A stretch of 9,349 bases of DNA from Treponema sp. GTDB taxonomy: Bacteria; Spirochaetota; Spirochaetia; Treponematales; Treponemataceae. The notes beneath the pieces were generated by a model. That model had not been told where the DNA came from. It did not search any database and saw only the letters and a program-made list of their open reading frames with translations. Location of the stretch: assembly GCA_017613485.1 (NCBI GenBank), contig JAGADS010000263.1, positions 1-9,349 on the forward strand, given 5' to 3'. Below, in pieces: positions 3,680-9,349 of this stretch (position 1 is the first letter of the stretch; the number at the start of each line of letters is the position of its first letter). A program made the position numbers and the translations under genes.

Positions 3680-5335
3680 ATGAAGTCTATAGTTTTTTTG
3701 TATGCAGGTTTTTCTACATCATTTGCATTTGATTCAGTTTTTTCCTCAAGATCAGCCTTTGAGCGCTCTTTGGTATGGGCATCAGGAATTAAGGATGCCC
3801 TGGGAATTTTTGTTGCAGTCACACCGTTTACCGAGTCGCAGGTAAAGGCTCAGTTGAATGAACTTGAATTAAAGGCCGACATCATAAAAAAAGAAAGCTG
3901 GAATATGAAGGAACTCATTCAGGAGATGGCTAGGGCAGCGGGTCAGTCCGGAGCAGGCGAGGTAATCTACTCATTTGCAGACCGTCCTTTTCTTGACAGT
4001 GCCCTTACAGTTCAGCTTTTACAGGAGCATGAAAAATATTCAGCTGAATATACTTTTGCAGACGGATACCCGGAAGGATTTGCGCCTGAGATAATACACT
4101 CAGGAACTCTGGCGATTCTTTCTTCCCTGATTTCGGGCAATGCGTCGTCTGAAGGGGCAAAAAAAGTTACTCCGCAGGGCATTTTCGCAGTAATGAAGAC
4201 CGACATCAATTCCTTTGAGATAGAGACCGTCCTCTCACAGAAAGACTACAGGATGCTCCGTCTTGACTTCTCATGCTCATCGCTTGCGGGAAAAACTGCA
4301 TGTACAAGGCTTTACGAGCTTTCCCTGGACAACAAGGTTCCTTTTGCGGCCGAATCCCTTTCTGAGTTTGCGGAAAAAACTCCTTCAATTCAGAGGACTG
4401 TACCTGCCTTCTATAACATCCAGCTGTGCAGGAACTACACTGTTTCCTCCGTTTACAATCCATACTTTGTACTTCCACATCTGAGGGATAAGATATCTCT
4501 CTCTGCAAAGCCAGTTTCTGTCATGAGTCTTGAGCAGTTCAAGGCGCTTGTAAGCCAGATAGCATCTTTTTCTGGCAGTGCCGTGATAGGCTTGAGTGCA
4601 TGCTGCGATCCTGTCGTTATTCCAAACCTTAGTGAGTACGTAAAGGCTGTTCTTGAATATCCCTCACTCTCTGTACTGATAGAAAGCGACGGAATTTATA
4701 TGTCAGAATCCCTTGCTTCTTTTATTGCGGCTGTTTCTGCACAGAGTTCTCCGCGTACAAACGGAATGGATGCCGTTACATGGATTATAAGCGTGGATGC
4801 ATTCAGATCTGGCATGTATTCAAAAATTCACGGTGAGTATTGTTCTGGATCTGATAAAGTTGAGCCGACAGGAGACGGTTCATTCTGCTTTGAAAAGGCA
4901 AGGCAGGCTGTCTCACTTTTGAGCGGCCTGTTTCCGGGTGCTGTATATCCGCAGTTCCTCAGGATGAATGTAAATGAGAATGAGCTTGAGCCCTTTTACC
5001 GCTACTATCATGACAAGGCATCTCCTTCTGGCGGAAAACTGATAATACAGAAATATGACCATTATTGCAGGACAATGCCGGATGAAAAAAGCGCCGATCT
5101 TTCCCCGCTTCTCCGTAATCCGTGCTGGCACATAAAGCGTGACATGATGATTATGAATGACGGTTCTGTTCCGTTCTGCCGTGAGTGCCTTGAAAAAATC
5201 ATAGTGGGAAATGTTTTCCGCGATGGAATAAAGGCTGTATGGGAAAAGATGACTCCAATGGCCGAGAAAGAAATGTCGGGGATACATGAACAGATTTGCG
5301 AGGATTGTGATGAATACTATACCTTTAATTTTTAA
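3680..5335 (+). CDS. SPASM-domain protein without radical-SAM motif (spiro-SPASM-like)
   Basis: 551 residues. The C-terminus carries an exact SPASM-type signature: Cys482-x12-Gly495-x4-Cys500, then Cys503, a GNVFRDGIKAVWE stretch typical of the domain, and Cys540-x2-Cys543. SPASM domains hold auxiliary Fe-S clusters in radical-SAM enzymes. However, no CX3CX2C motif occurs anywhere in the protein. The position where it would be expected, near NIQLCRNYTVSS, keeps only Cys250, with Thr254 and Ser257 at the other two sites. Residues 1-200 resemble an SpsF/CMP-sugar cytidylyltransferase: ADRPFLD at 100-106 and YPEGFAPEIIHSGTLAIL at 130-147 parallel ADNPFLF and LPHGSGVEVFKADSLL in the downstream gene, but the nucleotide-binding RLPxK motif is missing. 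I remember an NCBI family called spiro-SPASM that fits; this is unchecked. It is probably a non-classical or scaffold protein in glycan synthesis. It overlaps the next gene. Confidence 0.85.
   Translation: MKSIVFLYAGFSTSFAFDSVFSSRSAFERSLVWASGIKDALGIFVAVTPFTESQVKAQLNELELKADIIKKESWNMKELIQEMARAAGQSGAGEVIYSFADRPFLDSALTVQLLQEHEKYSAEYTFADGYPEGFAPEIIHSGTLAILSSLISGNASSEGAKKVTPQGIFAVMKTDINSFEIETVLSQKDYRMLRLDFSCSSLAGKTACTRLYELSLDNKVPFAAESLSEFAEKTPSIQRTVPAFYNIQLCRNYTVSSVYNPYFVLPHLRDKISLSAKPVSVMSLEQFKALVSQIASFSGSAVIGLSACCDPVVIPNLSEYVKAVLEYPSLSVLIESDGIYMSESLASFIAAVSAQSSPRTNGMDAVTWIISVDAFRSGMYSKIHGEYCSGSDKVEPTGDGSFCFEKARQAVSLLSGLFPGAVYPQFLRMNVNENELEPFYRYYHDKASPSGGKLIIQKYDHYCRTMPDEKSADLSPLLRNPCWHIKRDMMIMNDGSVPFCRECLEKIIVGNVFRDGIKAVWEKMTPMAEKEMSGIHEQICEDCDEYYTFNF
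5300..5304 (+). promoter_or_regulatory. Ribosome-binding site deciding the start of the glycosyltransferase
   Basis: GAGGA lies 5 nt before the ATG at 5310 and inside the 3' end of the upstream gene. The longer in-frame ATG at 5286 has no comparable site, so 5310 is preferred. The arrangement suggests translational coupling. Confidence 0.65.
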
Positions 5336-6272
5336 CCAGAGGGCAATCAGTCGCACAGTCCTTGGCGGAACAGAAAACGAGAGCCATGTATTGATGCCTG
5401 TCTCATGCATAATCCTGAACCGCAGCGGTAACCAGTATCGGAACATGGTTTTTGATTCTCTGGAAGGTCATGGATTTGAAAAGATTATATGCATTGAGTC
5501 GAATGATTCAAATAAAAGCATGGATGAGCTTTCACTTCAGTTTCCTACAGTAAAATTTGTGATTCCACACGAGGAAGTGACGCCCGGAGACATGCTTAAT
5601 CTCGGTATTGCAGAATGTCCTTCTCCGTATGCGCTTGTCGTTCAGGATGATCTGTGTACGCAGGATTTTCAGTTTACAGTCAACCTTGCACAAAAACTTG
5701 TTGAAAAAAACAGTTTCTGTGTCTGTCCCAGGCTTTTTTCATCAACACTTCAGGTTCTTCCGGTTAATTTCATACCCAATGTAAAGAAATCAGAGTTTAC
5801 GGTGGATTCATCATTGTCCATGGCGACTGGAACCAAGACTTTCTATGCATCTGACTGGGCAGGTTTTTATAATAAAGAGAAATTCATGGAGCTTGGCGGT
5901 GCGGACTACACGATTACTTCCTCATACTGGCAGAAACTGGATCTTTTCTTCCGTTCATGGCTTTGGGGTGAGAACACGTGCATAGATACGGCGTTTTCTC
6001 TGACGTATTCAGATTCGCTTCCTGAGGAAAACCAGACTATCGACCGCTCATACCTGAGGTTCTACATGAAAAACATACTGCCGGTGTTTAGGACTGATCA
6101 TGCCGAAATACCTGCATCCTCCTTTTTTGCCTTCAAGTCAAGAAGCTCATGTTCGCTCAGGGATGCAATCTCGCTTTTCGGTGATGCCAGAAACTGGACT
6201 TCTAAAAACATGTACCGTTTTAAGATGGATGCCGTTCAGCTCATTCAGGATTGGGAAAAACTGGGGGATTAG
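5310..6272 (+). CDS. GT2-like (GT-A fold) glycosyltransferase
   Basis: The 320-residue product has the layout of an inverting family 2 glycosyltransferase, which moves a sugar from a nucleotide donor to an acceptor in the cytoplasm. VSCIILNRSGNQYRNMVFDSL (residues 31-51) is the first beta strand and helix. LNLGIAECPSPYALVVQDDL (96-115) matches the conserved N.G...YALxxDDD block, with Asp113-Asp114 as the likely metal/nucleotide-binding acidic pair in place of a textbook DXD. A later SYWQKLDLFFRSWLWGE (205-221) resembles the ED..D...R...G catalytic-base region, although the usual ED is replaced by WQ. No membrane segment is seen. Donor and acceptor are unknown. Given the CMP-sugar and PseG-like domains next door, it may transfer a nonulosonic-acid-type sugar or build on one. 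It overlaps the upstream gene by 26 nt and ends 5 nt before the next ATG, so the genes are co-transcribed. Confidence 0.75.
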   Translation: MNTIPLIFNQRAISRTVLGGTENESHVLMPVSCIILNRSGNQYRNMVFDSLEGHGFEKIICIESNDSNKSMDELSLQFPTVKFVIPHEEVTPGDMLNLGIAECPSPYALVVQDDLCTQDFQFTVNLAQKLVEKNSFCVCPRLFSSTLQVLPVNFIPNVKKSEFTVDSSLSMATGTKTFYASDWAGFYNKEKFMELGGADYTITSSYWQKLDLFFRSWLWGENTCIDTAFSLTYSDSLPEENQTIDRSYLRFYMKNILPVFRTDHAEIPASSFFAFKSRSSCSLRDAISLFGDARNWTSKNMYRFKMDAVQLIQDWEKLGD

Positions 6273-6277
6273 AAGAG

Positions 6278-8791
6278 ATGAAATTGTTCAGTTTTTTTGG
6301 TGGAAATAAAAAACGTACTGCGGTTATTGTTCAATGCAGGCTATCCTCAACAAGGCTTCCCAGAAAGGCACTTCTTCCCCTTGGAGGTAAGACTGTTCTG
6401 GAATGGACACTAACGGCGATGAAAAATGTAAAGGCAGATGAGTATTATCTTGCCACAGATACAGACAGCGAGGCAGAGCTTGCACCGATTGCAAAGAAAT
6501 GCAAGTGGGAGCTTTTTGCAGGTTCAAGAGATGATGTACTTGACCGCTTTTGCCGTGTCATAGAAAAATCAAAGGCACAGTATATTCTCCGTGCCACAGC
6601 AGACAATCCGTTTTTGTTCTACGAGGCGGCACAGGAACTTCTGGATGATTTTGCAGCCAGAGCCCAGACTTCTGGATTAGACTACATGACATATACAGGC
6701 CTTCCTCATGGAAGCGGAGTAGAGGTGTTCAAGGCGGATTCTCTGCTTCGTGCGGCAAAGCTTACAGAGAGCGATTACGACCATGAGCATGTGGGACCTG
6801 CCATTTACAATCATACAGACAGGTTCAAGAGCCTTTTTGTTCCTGCACCAGAAAAATACTCCTCCCCACAGATGCGTACGACAATCGACACCTTGTTTGA
6901 CTACAACAGAAGCCTTACAGTGGTAAAGAACGTGTCCGGGGATTCAACCGTAAAAAAGAGCTATTCATATCAGACAATAATCGATGCAATGAATCAGGAC
7001 AGCATAAAATATCCTGTTCTCTATGTGCCAAGCGTGGAAAAGGGGCATGGTACGGGGCATCTTCACCGTTGCCTGGATCTTGTCCTTAAGACAGGGGGCG
7101 ACATTTACATTCCAGAGGATGCAAGTCTTGAGCAGTGTTCTGTCCTTGTGCAGGAAGCAATTGACGGCGGACTTGACAGGTGGCATGTAACTTCAACACT
7201 TGATTATGCGAAACAATACAGGCTCTGTGTCGTTGACATGTTCCAGTCTTCCCCATCCCTCCTTAAAAAACTGTCTGAGTCTTGCTGTGTGGTGGCACTT
7301 GATGAGGGAGGAGATTCCACAGACTGTGTTGACTATCTTCTTGACATTATTCCCGCTGTTGGAATCAGCCGTGAGGCAAATTCAGTTGATCCTGCCTTTA
7401 TCTCTCTTCCTGAGCGGAGGCATGGAGCTGAGTCTATCGATGCAAAAATCCATACTGCAGTTGTTGTCCTTGGTGGAGAGGATCCAAGCGGACTTTCAGT
7501 TCCCACTGCAAATGCCCTTGCTGAGAATTCAATCTATGTAACTCTTGTCTGTCCTTCAGCACTGTCTGTTCAGGAAGTTCAGGGCAGAATCAGCGAGAAG
7601 AATTCCCAGTACATAAAGGTTGTTCCACCAGTTCAGAACCTAAAGGAAAGGCTTTACGAATTTGATCTTGTCGTCACGCATTACGGTTTTACTGCATTTG
7701 AGGCAAGTGCGGCAGGATGTGCAGTCATTCTTCTTGGAACTACCATACTCCATATTGAGCTTGCAAGAAAATACGGTTTTGCATGTCTTGAGTCAAATCA
7801 GATTTCATCCGAGGGCTTCAGGAATCTGCTTGAAAATCCGTCAGCAATAAGAAAGCAGGACAGTTTTGGAGAGCAGAAATCACTTCCCGACTACATCTCT
7901 GTTCTTGCCAAGGGAATGAAGCTGCCATGTCCAGTGTGCAGGTCAGAATTCCATGAGCAGGATAACCTTGTATCAAGGACACCGGAGAGGACGTTCAGAA
8001 GATGCCGTAACTGCGGAATGCTCTATCAGTCATGGACGGTTCAGTCAAAGCAGACAGAATACAATTACGATTACTTTTTCGCAGATTACCAGAAACAGTA
8101 CGGTAAGACATATCTTGATGATTTTTCTACAATCAAGGCACAGGGGGTTCGCCGTACAGGTATAATCGACATGCTCTACCGCAGAAAACATTCATCCGTG
8201 ACACCGACCATTCTTGACATAGGCTGTGCGATGGGACCCTTCCTTGATGCCGCCAATGACGCGGGATGGCAGGTTTTTGGAACAGATGTTGCATCTGATG
8301 CAGTTGACTATGTTCAGAATACCCTTCATTTCCCTGCGATAAAGGCATCTTTCCCCGATATAGACGTGACAAAGGAATTCGGAGTGGAGGCATTTGATGC
8401 CGTGACAATGTGGTTTGTAATCGAGCATTTCCAGGATCTGGATAAAGTCCTTAGGGCAGTATCAGGAATTGTACGCAAGGGCGGAATTTTTGCATTCAGC
8501 ACACCGTCTGCCGCAGGGGTAAGTGCGAAATACAACACAAAGGAATTTTTCAGGACAAGCCCGTCTGACCATTACAGCCTGTGGGAGCCGAAAAAAGCTG
8601 ATTCAATTCTTCGACGATATGGATTCAAAGTGTGCCGTATTGTGCCTACAGGAATCCATCCTGAGCGTTTCCCATGTGCGCGTAAAAAGAACCTTCAGTC
8701 TTCATCGCTCAAATTCAAGGCTCTTGGAACCATAAGCCGAATCTGTAAGCTGGGTGACACCTTTGAGGTATACTGCAGGAAGGAGAAATGA
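6278..8791 (+). CDS. spsF: Fusion: SpsF cytidylyltransferase + PseG/SpsG-like domain + zinc ribbon + SAM methyltransferase
   Basis: 837 residues with at least three enzymatic modules. Residues 12-245 are an SpsF/CMP-KDO-synthetase-like cytidylyltransferase: VQCRLSSTRLPRKAL (18-32) is the nucleotide-binding loop, and ADNPF (108-112) and LPHGSGVEVF (142-151) are family blocks. Residues 246-510 are a GT-B-like domain related to PseG/SpsG: GHGTGHLHRC (256-265) matches the GxGHxxRC motif holding the PseG catalytic His. LGGEDPSG (398-405) and THYGFTAFEASAAGC (467-481) match the GG and G-x-x-E nucleotide-binding parts. Cys551, Cys554, Cys576 and Cys579 form a zinc ribbon. Residues 640-760 are a class I methyltransferase with ILDIGCAMGPF (645-655) and FDAVTMWFVIEHF (706-718). 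I chose ATG 6278 over TTG 6251, which lies inside the upstream gene. It should yield or alter a CMP-activated, methylated sugar; the substrate is unknown. The symbol covers the first domain only. Confidence 0.88.
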   Translation: MKLFSFFGGNKKRTAVIVQCRLSSTRLPRKALLPLGGKTVLEWTLTAMKNVKADEYYLATDTDSEAELAPIAKKCKWELFAGSRDDVLDRFCRVIEKSKAQYILRATADNPFLFYEAAQELLDDFAARAQTSGLDYMTYTGLPHGSGVEVFKADSLLRAAKLTESDYDHEHVGPAIYNHTDRFKSLFVPAPEKYSSPQMRTTIDTLFDYNRSLTVVKNVSGDSTVKKSYSYQTIIDAMNQDSIKYPVLYVPSVEKGHGTGHLHRCLDLVLKTGGDIYIPEDASLEQCSVLVQEAIDGGLDRWHVTSTLDYAKQYRLCVVDMFQSSPSLLKKLSESCCVVALDEGGDSTDCVDYLLDIIPAVGISREANSVDPAFISLPERRHGAESIDAKIHTAVVVLGGEDPSGLSVPTANALAENSIYVTLVCPSALSVQEVQGRISEKNSQYIKVVPPVQNLKERLYEFDLVVTHYGFTAFEASAAGCAVILLGTTILHIELARKYGFACLESNQISSEGFRNLLENPSAIRKQDSFGEQKSLPDYISVLAKGMKLPCPVCRSEFHEQDNLVSRTPERTFRRCRNCGMLYQSWTVQSKQTEYNYDYFFADYQKQYGKTYLDDFSTIKAQGVRRTGIIDMLYRRKHSSVTPTILDIGCAMGPFLDAANDAGWQVFGTDVASDAVDYVQNTLHFPAIKASFPDIDVTKEFGVEAFDAVTMWFVIEHFQDLDKVLRAVSGIVRKGGIFAFSTPSAAGVSAKYNTKEFFRTSPSDHYSLWEPKKADSILRRYGFKVCRIVPTGIHPERFPCARKKNLQSSSLKFKALGTISRICKLGDTFEVYCRKEK
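8781..8786 (+). promoter_or_regulatory. Ribosome-binding site for the ATP-grasp gene
   Basis: AGGAGA lies at the end of the preceding gene, 8 nt before the ATG at 8795. Another ATG at 8788 is nearer the site but reaches a stop after five codons (8788-8805), so 8795 is the true start. Confidence 0.7.
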
Positions 8792-8794
8792 ACC

Positions 8795-9349
8795 ATGGAA
8801 GATAAGTATGTTTTGATTTTGGGTGCCGGATTGATGCAGAGACCTGCAATAGAAGCTGCCCGTGAGCTAGGATATAAAACTGTTGTCGCCGATGCCAATC
8901 CCCATGCCTTGTGCGTGCCGTTTGCAGACCGTTTAGAGAACATCGACCTAAAGGATAAGGAAGGACTTGCAAAGCTTGCTCTTTCCATGGGTGAAAGCCT
9001 TGAGGGTGTTTTTACCGCCGGAACTGATTTTTCTGCCTCGGTCTCCTATGTTGCCCAGAAATGCAAATTTCATGCACATTCATATCAGGCATCATGCAAC
9101 GCAAGCAATAAAGTCCTCATGCGGGAATGCTTTGACAAGTACAATGTACCGTCTCCTAAATTCAAGCAGATTCACAGAACTCAGATAGCCATGTACATAA
9201 AGCCGTCTGTCCTGAGTGAAATACAGTTTCCGATGGTTGTAAAGCCTGTGGACAATATGGGTGCAAGGGGATGCCGTCTTGTAAGGAATCAGGATGAATT
9301 CCTTCCGTGCATAGAGGATGCAGTGCGTAACTCAAGGAGCGGAAACTCA
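8795..9349 (+). CDS. ATP-grasp family ligase, 3'-truncated by the window edge
   Basis: 185 residues are visible and the frame is open to the last base. ATP-grasp enzymes join a carboxylate to an amine, thiol or similar group through an acyl-phosphate. Residues 4-35 form the Rossmann-like pre-ATP-grasp domain, with VLILGAGLMQRPAIEAARELG as in PurK/CarB-type proteins. SNKVLMRECFDKYNVPSPKF (104-123) is the usual linker, with Lys106 as the first ATP-binding lysine. FPMVVKPVDNMGARGCRLV (145-163) has the second lysine, Lys150, and the glycine-rich loop. The catalytic C-terminal part is outside the window, so substrate class cannot be judged. The gene starts 3 nt after the fusion gene's stop, so it belongs to the same operon. 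A role in attaching an amino-acid or acyl group to the glycan or its precursor is inference. Confidence 0.88.
   Translation, partial: MEDKYVLILGAGLMQRPAIEAARELGYKTVVADANPHALCVPFADRLENIDLKDKEGLAKLALSMGESLEGVFTAGTDFSASVSYVAQKCKFHAHSYQASCNASNKVLMRECFDKYNVPSPKFKQIHRTQIAMYIKPSVLSEIQFPMVVKPVDNMGARGCRLVRNQDEFLPCIEDAVRNSRSGNS

Follow-up and report, generated by a model that had tools for sequence, protein, structure and literature searches.

The fusion gene and its distribution

The 9,349-nucleotide stretch of Treponema sp. contig JAGADS010000263.1 analysed here (the window) carries a gene that encodes, in a single polypeptide, a cytidylyltransferase module, a PseG-like GT-B module, a four-cysteine (Cys4) ribbon and an S-adenosylmethionine (SAM) methyltransferase module, in that order; the coordinates of this fusion gene and of the cassette in which it lies are given in Table 1. 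From its domain make-up, its conservation, its cassette and its co-occurrence with other genes, we propose that the fusion likely supplies the uridine diphosphate (UDP)-removal, cytidine monophosphate (CMP)-activation and methylation steps for a pseudaminic-acid-like sugar predicted on Treponema flagellins, a reading to which we give a probability of about 0.6.

Table 1. Genes of the cassette and modules of the fusion protein (positions in the window; residues of the fusion protein).
Feature	Coordinates	Strand	Details
Spiro-SPASM protein, first cassette gene	3680..5335	+	TIGR04321, 511.7 bits (cut-off 250)
Second cassette gene	5310..6272	+	about 320 residues; frame opens at 5286 (328 residues)
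Fusion gene	6278..8791	+	837 residues; ATG at 6278, TGA ending at 8791; intact open reading frame
Cytidylyltransferase (PseF/SpsF/KdsB-like) module	6311..6982	+	residues 12-235
PseG-like GT-B module	7010..7897	+	residues 245-540
Cys4 ribbon	7916..8026	+	residues 547-583; C551, C554, C576, C579
SAM methyltransferase module	8066..8788	+	residues 597-837
ATP-grasp ligase gene, start	8795..9349	+	cut by window end

An earlier description made from these letters without searches (the sequence-only reading) had claimed one chain of four modules with its key residues intact, and both claims hold. The reading frame is unbroken, Pfam recognizes CTP_transf_3 and Methyltransf_23, and the part between them is similar to the PseG family TIGR03590; the motifs RLSSTRLPRK (residues 21-30), GHGTGHLHRC (256-265) and LDIGCAMG (646-653) are present together with the four cysteines, and key positions are conserved across homologues. 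The longest frame around the gene begins upstream, with a TTG at 6251. An AlphaFold2 model of the protein, built from 30 sequences, has a mean predicted local distance difference test score of 90.1 and a predicted template modelling score of 0.87. The ratios of nonsynonymous to synonymous substitution rates (dN/dS) against the homologous locus L002 are 0.045, 0.109 and 0.049 across three modules, and by this measure every module of the fusion is under purifying selection.

A protein search with the fusion returned 966 homologues at an expectation value (E) of 0.001 or less; among the best 120 of these, 119 align over 98% or more of its length, and every organism name shown is a Treponema. Scanning genomes yielded 36 loci, whose titles all point to Treponema or other spirochetes. 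In 25 of them, T. putidum and T. vincentii included, the modules lie in one uninterrupted frame that spans both ends or runs to the contig end (two are contig-cut), and eight (L026, L028, L029, L030, L031, L032, L035 and L036) are split into two adjacent genes, one for the cytidylyltransferase and one for the PseG-like, ribbon and methyltransferase parts; the remaining three (L027, L033 and L034) are cut or broken. A search with the split PseG-methyltransferase protein gave 874 hits, of which the best 120 are nearly all about 530-690 residues long, with the few organisms shown for them being spirochetes or a metagenome. Across a Spirochaetota sample, 318 of 392 genomes match the fusion at E <= 0.001, many of them weakly. 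By hand count, at least 60 of the 392 have a single stop-free match spanning both ends of the fusion, at least 45 match the PseG-methyltransferase part only, and at least 16 further spanning matches contain a reported stop, one of which (G029, locus L096) is a split form. The fusion is thus, on these sequence comparisons, a conserved spirochete gene that spans Treponema and extends, in its split form, deeper into Spirochaetota.

The several frames of L033, together with the stops reported, by hand count, in at least 16 of 76 spanning matches, could suggest that the single long frame is an accident of sequencing or assembly. We give this virtually no chance, and regard it as refuted by conservation: the frame is uninterrupted in 25 of the 36 loci, those of T. 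putidum and T. vincentii among them, and dN/dS is low in all modules. In L033 itself (L033:9998-12441) either decay or an assembly error has divided the fusion between several frames.

A tree built from 46 PseG-methyltransferase regions, 25 of them fused and 21 split, has two changes between split and fused forms, forced by well-supported branches, and none of 500 shuffles of the labels was as low. The main fused clade (21 rows, support 100/99) includes the window, and a second fused set (L092, L095, L097 and L098, support 100/100) stands apart from it, beside split rows. Two independent fusions are the simplest reading of this tree, with one gain and one loss also counting two; if there were two separate fusions, this would suggest that closeness of the parts is useful.

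Assignment of the modules

Whole-genome searches covered the source genomes of 26 of the 36 loci (26 genomes: 20 fused, 6 split), with L004, L008, L013, L016, L023, L027, L029, L032, L033 and L034 dropped. The cytidylyltransferase module matches CTP_transf_3 (PF02348) over residues 15-205 with 105 bits, above the Pfam gathering cut-off of 22.6. Its nucleotide loop and two acidic positions (R21, S24, K30, D109 and D204) are kept in all 25 fused rows, the two acidic residues, D109 and D204, presumably having a metal role. The best cytidylyltransferase model by E-value in NCBIfam is a Kdo-type subfamily, and since the 22 NCBIfam families listed for the fusion protein at E <= 0.1 include no PseF equivalog model, we do not assign the module as PseF. 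PF02348 is matched in all 26 genomes, and the cassette copy is the sole match in 20 of them; an additional match in G023 falls inside the spiro-SPASM gene. In T. vincentii (G017, C1:2449020-2450401) a second NeuB adjoins a second cytidylyltransferase domain distant from the cassette, which suggests a second nonulosonic acid pathway there.

The PseG-like part of the 837-residue protein has no Pfam match. When homologous PseG-like domains were searched alone, TIGR03590 was the one family matched by all 20 (E <= 0.01 in each, best 9.9e-16), and none of the 20 matched the NCBIfam MurG models. Against the Protein Data Bank (PDB), the domain profile has one match below E 0.1, PseG of Campylobacter jejuni (3hbm, E 4.6e-6). 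H261 is aligned on residue 17 of this chain, a histidine that we take to be catalytic, the GxGHxxR loop reads GTGHLHR in the fusion, and H261 and R264 are kept in all 46 rows, fused and split. TIGR03590 is matched in 19 of the 26 genomes and above its cut-off in none; five of the six best matches fall in fusion or split frames. The others are mostly frames of about 380-440 residues in which just the C-terminal half of the model is covered, and which we take, from frame length alone, to be MurG.

On an alternative view the module is inactive or works as a MurG-type glycosyltransferase, and the protein activates and methylates a sugar without removing UDP. We consider this quite unlikely, as the family matches, the single PDB match and the invariant histidine and arginine all speak against it, and no PseG above cut-off is found elsewhere in the 26 genomes, most of which have a synthase. 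By fold, MurG is the only match listed for this part when the whole model is compared, and when the domain is folded alone PseG appears among the matches, tied with many GT-B chains, for which reason the fold was dropped as an arbiter. The sequence-only reading had itself named a glycosyltransferase-only module as the outcome that would undo it; the sequence makes that outcome less likely, and the fold does not discriminate.

The methyltransferase module matches Methyltransf_23 (residues 642-785) with 65.6 bits against a cut-off of 27, and other class I methyltransferase models match at about the same residues; the Cys4 part has a weak Pfam ribbon match, below cut-off. In L018 (L018:9124-12318) the fusion frame is 1064 residues long, with additional sequence within the methyltransferase match.

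The cassette and the rest of the pathway

The fusion is the third gene of a cassette in which it follows the spiro-SPASM gene and the second gene and precedes the ATP-grasp ligase gene, with gaps of 5 bases before it and 3 after. The second gene, read from 5310, overlaps the spiro-SPASM gene by 26 bases, and its product has no Pfam or NCBIfam match. The full ATP-grasp ligase, present in L001, is 536 residues long and matches ATP-grasp_3, ATP-grasp_4 and LAL_C2 (the L-amino-acid-ligase C-terminal domain), as expected for a ligase that couples a carboxylate and an amine. The first two genes have homologues beside the fusion in 33 of the 36 loci and the ligase in 32, counts that are limited by three loci that begin within the fusion (L016, L027 and L034) and one that ends in it (L013). 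The ligase gene is absent at the cassette position in L020, L022 (T. putidum) and L023; the genomes of the first two carry it elsewhere.

Pfam finds only SPASM in the window's spiro-SPASM protein, and the homologue in the second fused clade (L092:2365-3819) also has radical SAM (PF04055); by this comparison the protein of the Treponema cassette may have lost radical SAM function. Further upstream, at 1752-2912 on the reverse strand, the window codes for a 386-residue protein without a Pfam match that is 89-90% identical in L001-L003 and that a tblastn search did not find in the other 33 loci as fetched. In L074, CheA- and CheW-like frames, identified by eye, and the NeuB synthase (L074:10143-15992) are found no more than about 10 kb from the split cassette, a proximity that hints at a role in motility.

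Most of the remaining pathway is found in the same genomes. A NeuB-family synthase is present at E <= 2e-52 in 23 of the 26, with only weak hits (about 1e-8) in G003, G015 and G026, and at E <= 1e-48 in all 37 of the gene-bearing genomes searched in the phylum sample (27 fused, 10 split). A strong NeuB/PseI-type synthase thus accompanies the fusion or split pair in 60 of 63 genomes (23/26 and 37/37), against one of 20 searched among the 74 genomes without a match; that one, G249, also lacks a flagellin. The ligase is matched in all 63 (26/26, also where unlinked, as in T. putidum, and 37/37, across contigs in G064). Two examples are G190, which has fusion, NeuB and ligase, and G082, in which an 862-residue fused frame adjoins the first two cassette genes, NeuB is present and the ligase lies elsewhere. 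In G360 the ligase match (C1:2556714-2558499) has several stops, and the genome retains the fusion and NeuB.

PseB-like proteins occur at E <= 2e-48 in 23 of the 26 genomes and PseC-like proteins at E <= 4e-95 in 25, none of either above its curated cut-off, and the PseB-like dehydratase is a long PF02719 protein. The two genes neighbour each other in four (L068, L069, L070 and L075) of five regions compared; in the fifth, from T. putidum (L067), about 3.4 kb separates them, and in T. vincentii (G017) they lie at a great distance from each other. In L067, L069 and L070 the PseB-like gene directly follows a NusG/KOW-type gene (by Pfam in L067 and L070, by eye in L069), which is perhaps a dedicated antiterminator. 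PF01973, which we take to be the Maf-type transferase, is matched in all 26. No PseH lies above cut-off in any of the 26 (best E 2.2e-20), and we therefore call this a variant of the Pse-type flagellin glycosylation system.

In the route that we predict, from each catalytic step and the order of ligase and methyltransferase to the methyl acceptor and the flagellin target, a PseB-like dehydratase and a PseC-like aminotransferase would make a UDP-4-amino sugar, and the cassette ligase, replacing PseH, would join a polyhydroxy acid to its 4-amine. The methyltransferase module would then O-methylate the acyl group, the PseG-like module strip UDP, the separate NeuB/PseI synthase add pyruvate, and the cytidylyltransferase module form the CMP-sugar, whose sugar Maf-type enzymes would pass to flagellin serines.

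The sequence-only reading had observed that the PseG-like and CMP-transfer modules, which act on either side of a synthase, share one chain, which the synthase alongside bears out; its suggestion of channelling between the two fares poorly. The intervening synthase has its own gene, which is not part of the cassette, and the cytidylyltransferase is separate in eight of the 36 loci, and we reject such channelling as the sole reason for the fusion. Because the synthase acts between them, the two modules are not consecutive unless the synthase docks there. A direct handover is plausible for the methyltransferase and PseG-like modules, whose predicted steps follow each other, and agrees with these two parts forming one protein even in the split genomes.

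The product might instead be another CMP-keto-sugar (legionaminic- or sialic-like), or be destined for a surface polymer and not for flagellin: the synthase scores better with NeuB_NnaB than with PseI, the first cytidylyltransferase model is of the Kdo type, and the long PF02719 dehydratase leaves the stereochemistry open. We regard such a product as unlikely. The T. denticola PseI (TDE0960) is reported to be critical for flagellin (PMC9862357), the fused part is a PseG-like module and not a hydrolysing 2-epimerase, and a flagellin is found in all 20 tested genomes with the gene.

The flagellin glycan and known systems

The proposed pseudaminic-type product can be set beside the flagellin glycan of T. 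denticola, which a 2017 abstract reportedly described as a pseudaminic-type acid that is monoacetylated and bears on N7 a 2-methoxy-4,5,6-trihydroxyhexanoyl group. The residue mass that we compute for this structure is 450.185, or 436.169 minus the methyl. The N7 of such a nonulosonic acid derives from the 4-amine of the UDP-sugar, and the PseH step would therefore be the entry point of the acyl group; such a structure is in keeping with the conserved ligase, the lack of a PseH above cut-off and the fusion of a methyltransferase to the enzyme that follows. The three FlaB proteins of T. denticola carry a novel 450.2-Da glycan that is essential for filament assembly and motility (PMC9481697). 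The likeness to this glycan that the sequence-only reading had suggested is strengthened, in that T. putidum carries the fusion (L022).

By analogy with this structure, the methyltransferase module is probably the source of the methoxy group reported for the 450.2-Da glycan. Methylation may equally fall on the UDP-sugar or on its acyl group, so that the methylated CMP-sugar suggested by the sequence-only reading is at most a candidate product of this chain. That the module targets another site altogether, such as a carbon of the UDP- or CMP-sugar or one of its hydroxyl groups, has odds not far short of even. The closest folds to this part are MtmC, TcaB9 and KijD1 (13-19% identity), and TcaB9 and KijD1 are titled C3-methyltransferases of deoxythymidine diphosphate (dTDP)-sugars. 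The fusion shares with these nucleotide-sugar methyltransferases a ribbon and a Rossmann methyltransferase core; it lacks their C-terminal third domain, its match ending at their residue 266-267 of 394-419, and unlike them it carries PseG-like and cytidylyltransferase modules. This missing part argues against such a target, as does the structure reported for T. denticola, which places its methyl on the acyl group and has a matching mass.

The flagellin glycan is O-linked near the D1 domain, within the motifs VEVSQL and DRIAS, and in B. burgdorferi FlaB both motif serines are substituted (PMC7431986). Flagellins were found in the 20 tested genomes with the gene and in 37 of 60 without it, so flagella alone do not require the gene. 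One flagellin per genome was compared, from 16 of the 20 (not G387, G349, G267 or G374) and from 13 of the 37. All 16 from genomes with the gene keep the serines of both motifs (VEVS or IEVS, and RIAS), with small changes nearby in four, and all 11 Borrelia-like flagellins from genomes without it have Glu and Asp instead (IEIEQL or IEVEQL; RIAD or RVAD); the contigs that carry these 11 measure 0.90-0.96 Mb in ten cases and 0.22 Mb in one. The setting of this acidic replacement against loss of the pathway is our own observation.

Several points weigh against a PseG-type role and its link to flagellin. The match to TIGR03590 is far below the cut-off of 153.55 bits for the whole protein (26.3 bits), and does not reach it for the PseG-like domain alone (30.2 bits); the module is thus outside the family by score, and may, on its sequence, function like PseG all the same. 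In the models, its fold does not separate PseG from MurG-type transferases. Most genomes without the gene are small, and descent and genome reduction confound the co-occurrence. Two of the 13 flagellins from genomes without the gene (L142 of G246 and L143 of G189) keep both serines; both genomes are fragmented, and G189, where a short piece of NeuB also occurs, may be incomplete. The 11 Borrelia-like rows probably belong to a single lineage and so count as one evolutionary event rather than eleven.

We advance only tentatively, and with more doubt than belief, the fullest form of the proposal, in which the fusion would be PseG, PseF and an O-methyltransferase at once, the ligase would stand in for PseH and build the N7 acyl group, and the Glu and Asp of Borrelia-like flagellins would take over the negative charge of the sugar. 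If it is true, one gene could be named for two steps and as the methylation candidate of a glycan reported essential for T. denticola filaments, and a ligase predicted in place of the usual acetyltransferase would explain the unusual acyl group. The glycan structure would become a testable list of about seven genes, and loss of the pathway would be tied to a specific flagellin change.

The enzyme families and the outline of the pathway are already known; what appears to be new is that a single chain combines PseF-like, PseG-like, ribbon and methyltransferase parts. In the open-access literature searched there is no report of this fusion, of the PseH-less ligase variant or of its place in Spirochaetota. 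Homologues of the fused and split forms are sometimes named SpsF or spore coat polysaccharide glycosyltransferase by their source. Bacillus subtilis SpsF and SpsG, which we take to be paired as PseF- and PseG-like counterparts, are separate proteins without a methyltransferase; sps genes serve as the PseF/PseG reference in PMC13317340. The cytidylyltransferase of Leptospira borgpetersenii (6oew) is a 250-residue chain with that module alone, and the fusion carries more modules.

The pseudaminic acid (Pse) pathway of C. jejuni and H. pylori proceeds in the order PseB, PseC, PseH, PseG, PseI, PseF (PMC7591256). The spirochete system has in common with it the PseG-like and CMP-transfer domains and, in most of the same genomes, PseB-like, PseC-like and NeuB/PseI-type proteins. 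It differs in that one chain unites the PseF- and PseG-like parts with a ribbon and a methyltransferase, that an ATP-grasp ligase occurs where no PseH lies above cut-off, and that the PseG, PseB and PseC matches are below curated cut-offs.

Clostridium Pse clusters have a PtmH orthologue and a second methyltransferase beside pseF, and the authors propose a methylated Pse (PMC13317340), so that a methyltransferase gene is linked to CMP-Pse genes there as it is here. Unlike the fusion, the Clostridium genes are separate (the words 'fused' and 'bifunctional' are absent from the text of PMC13317340), and the likeness is one of gene context.

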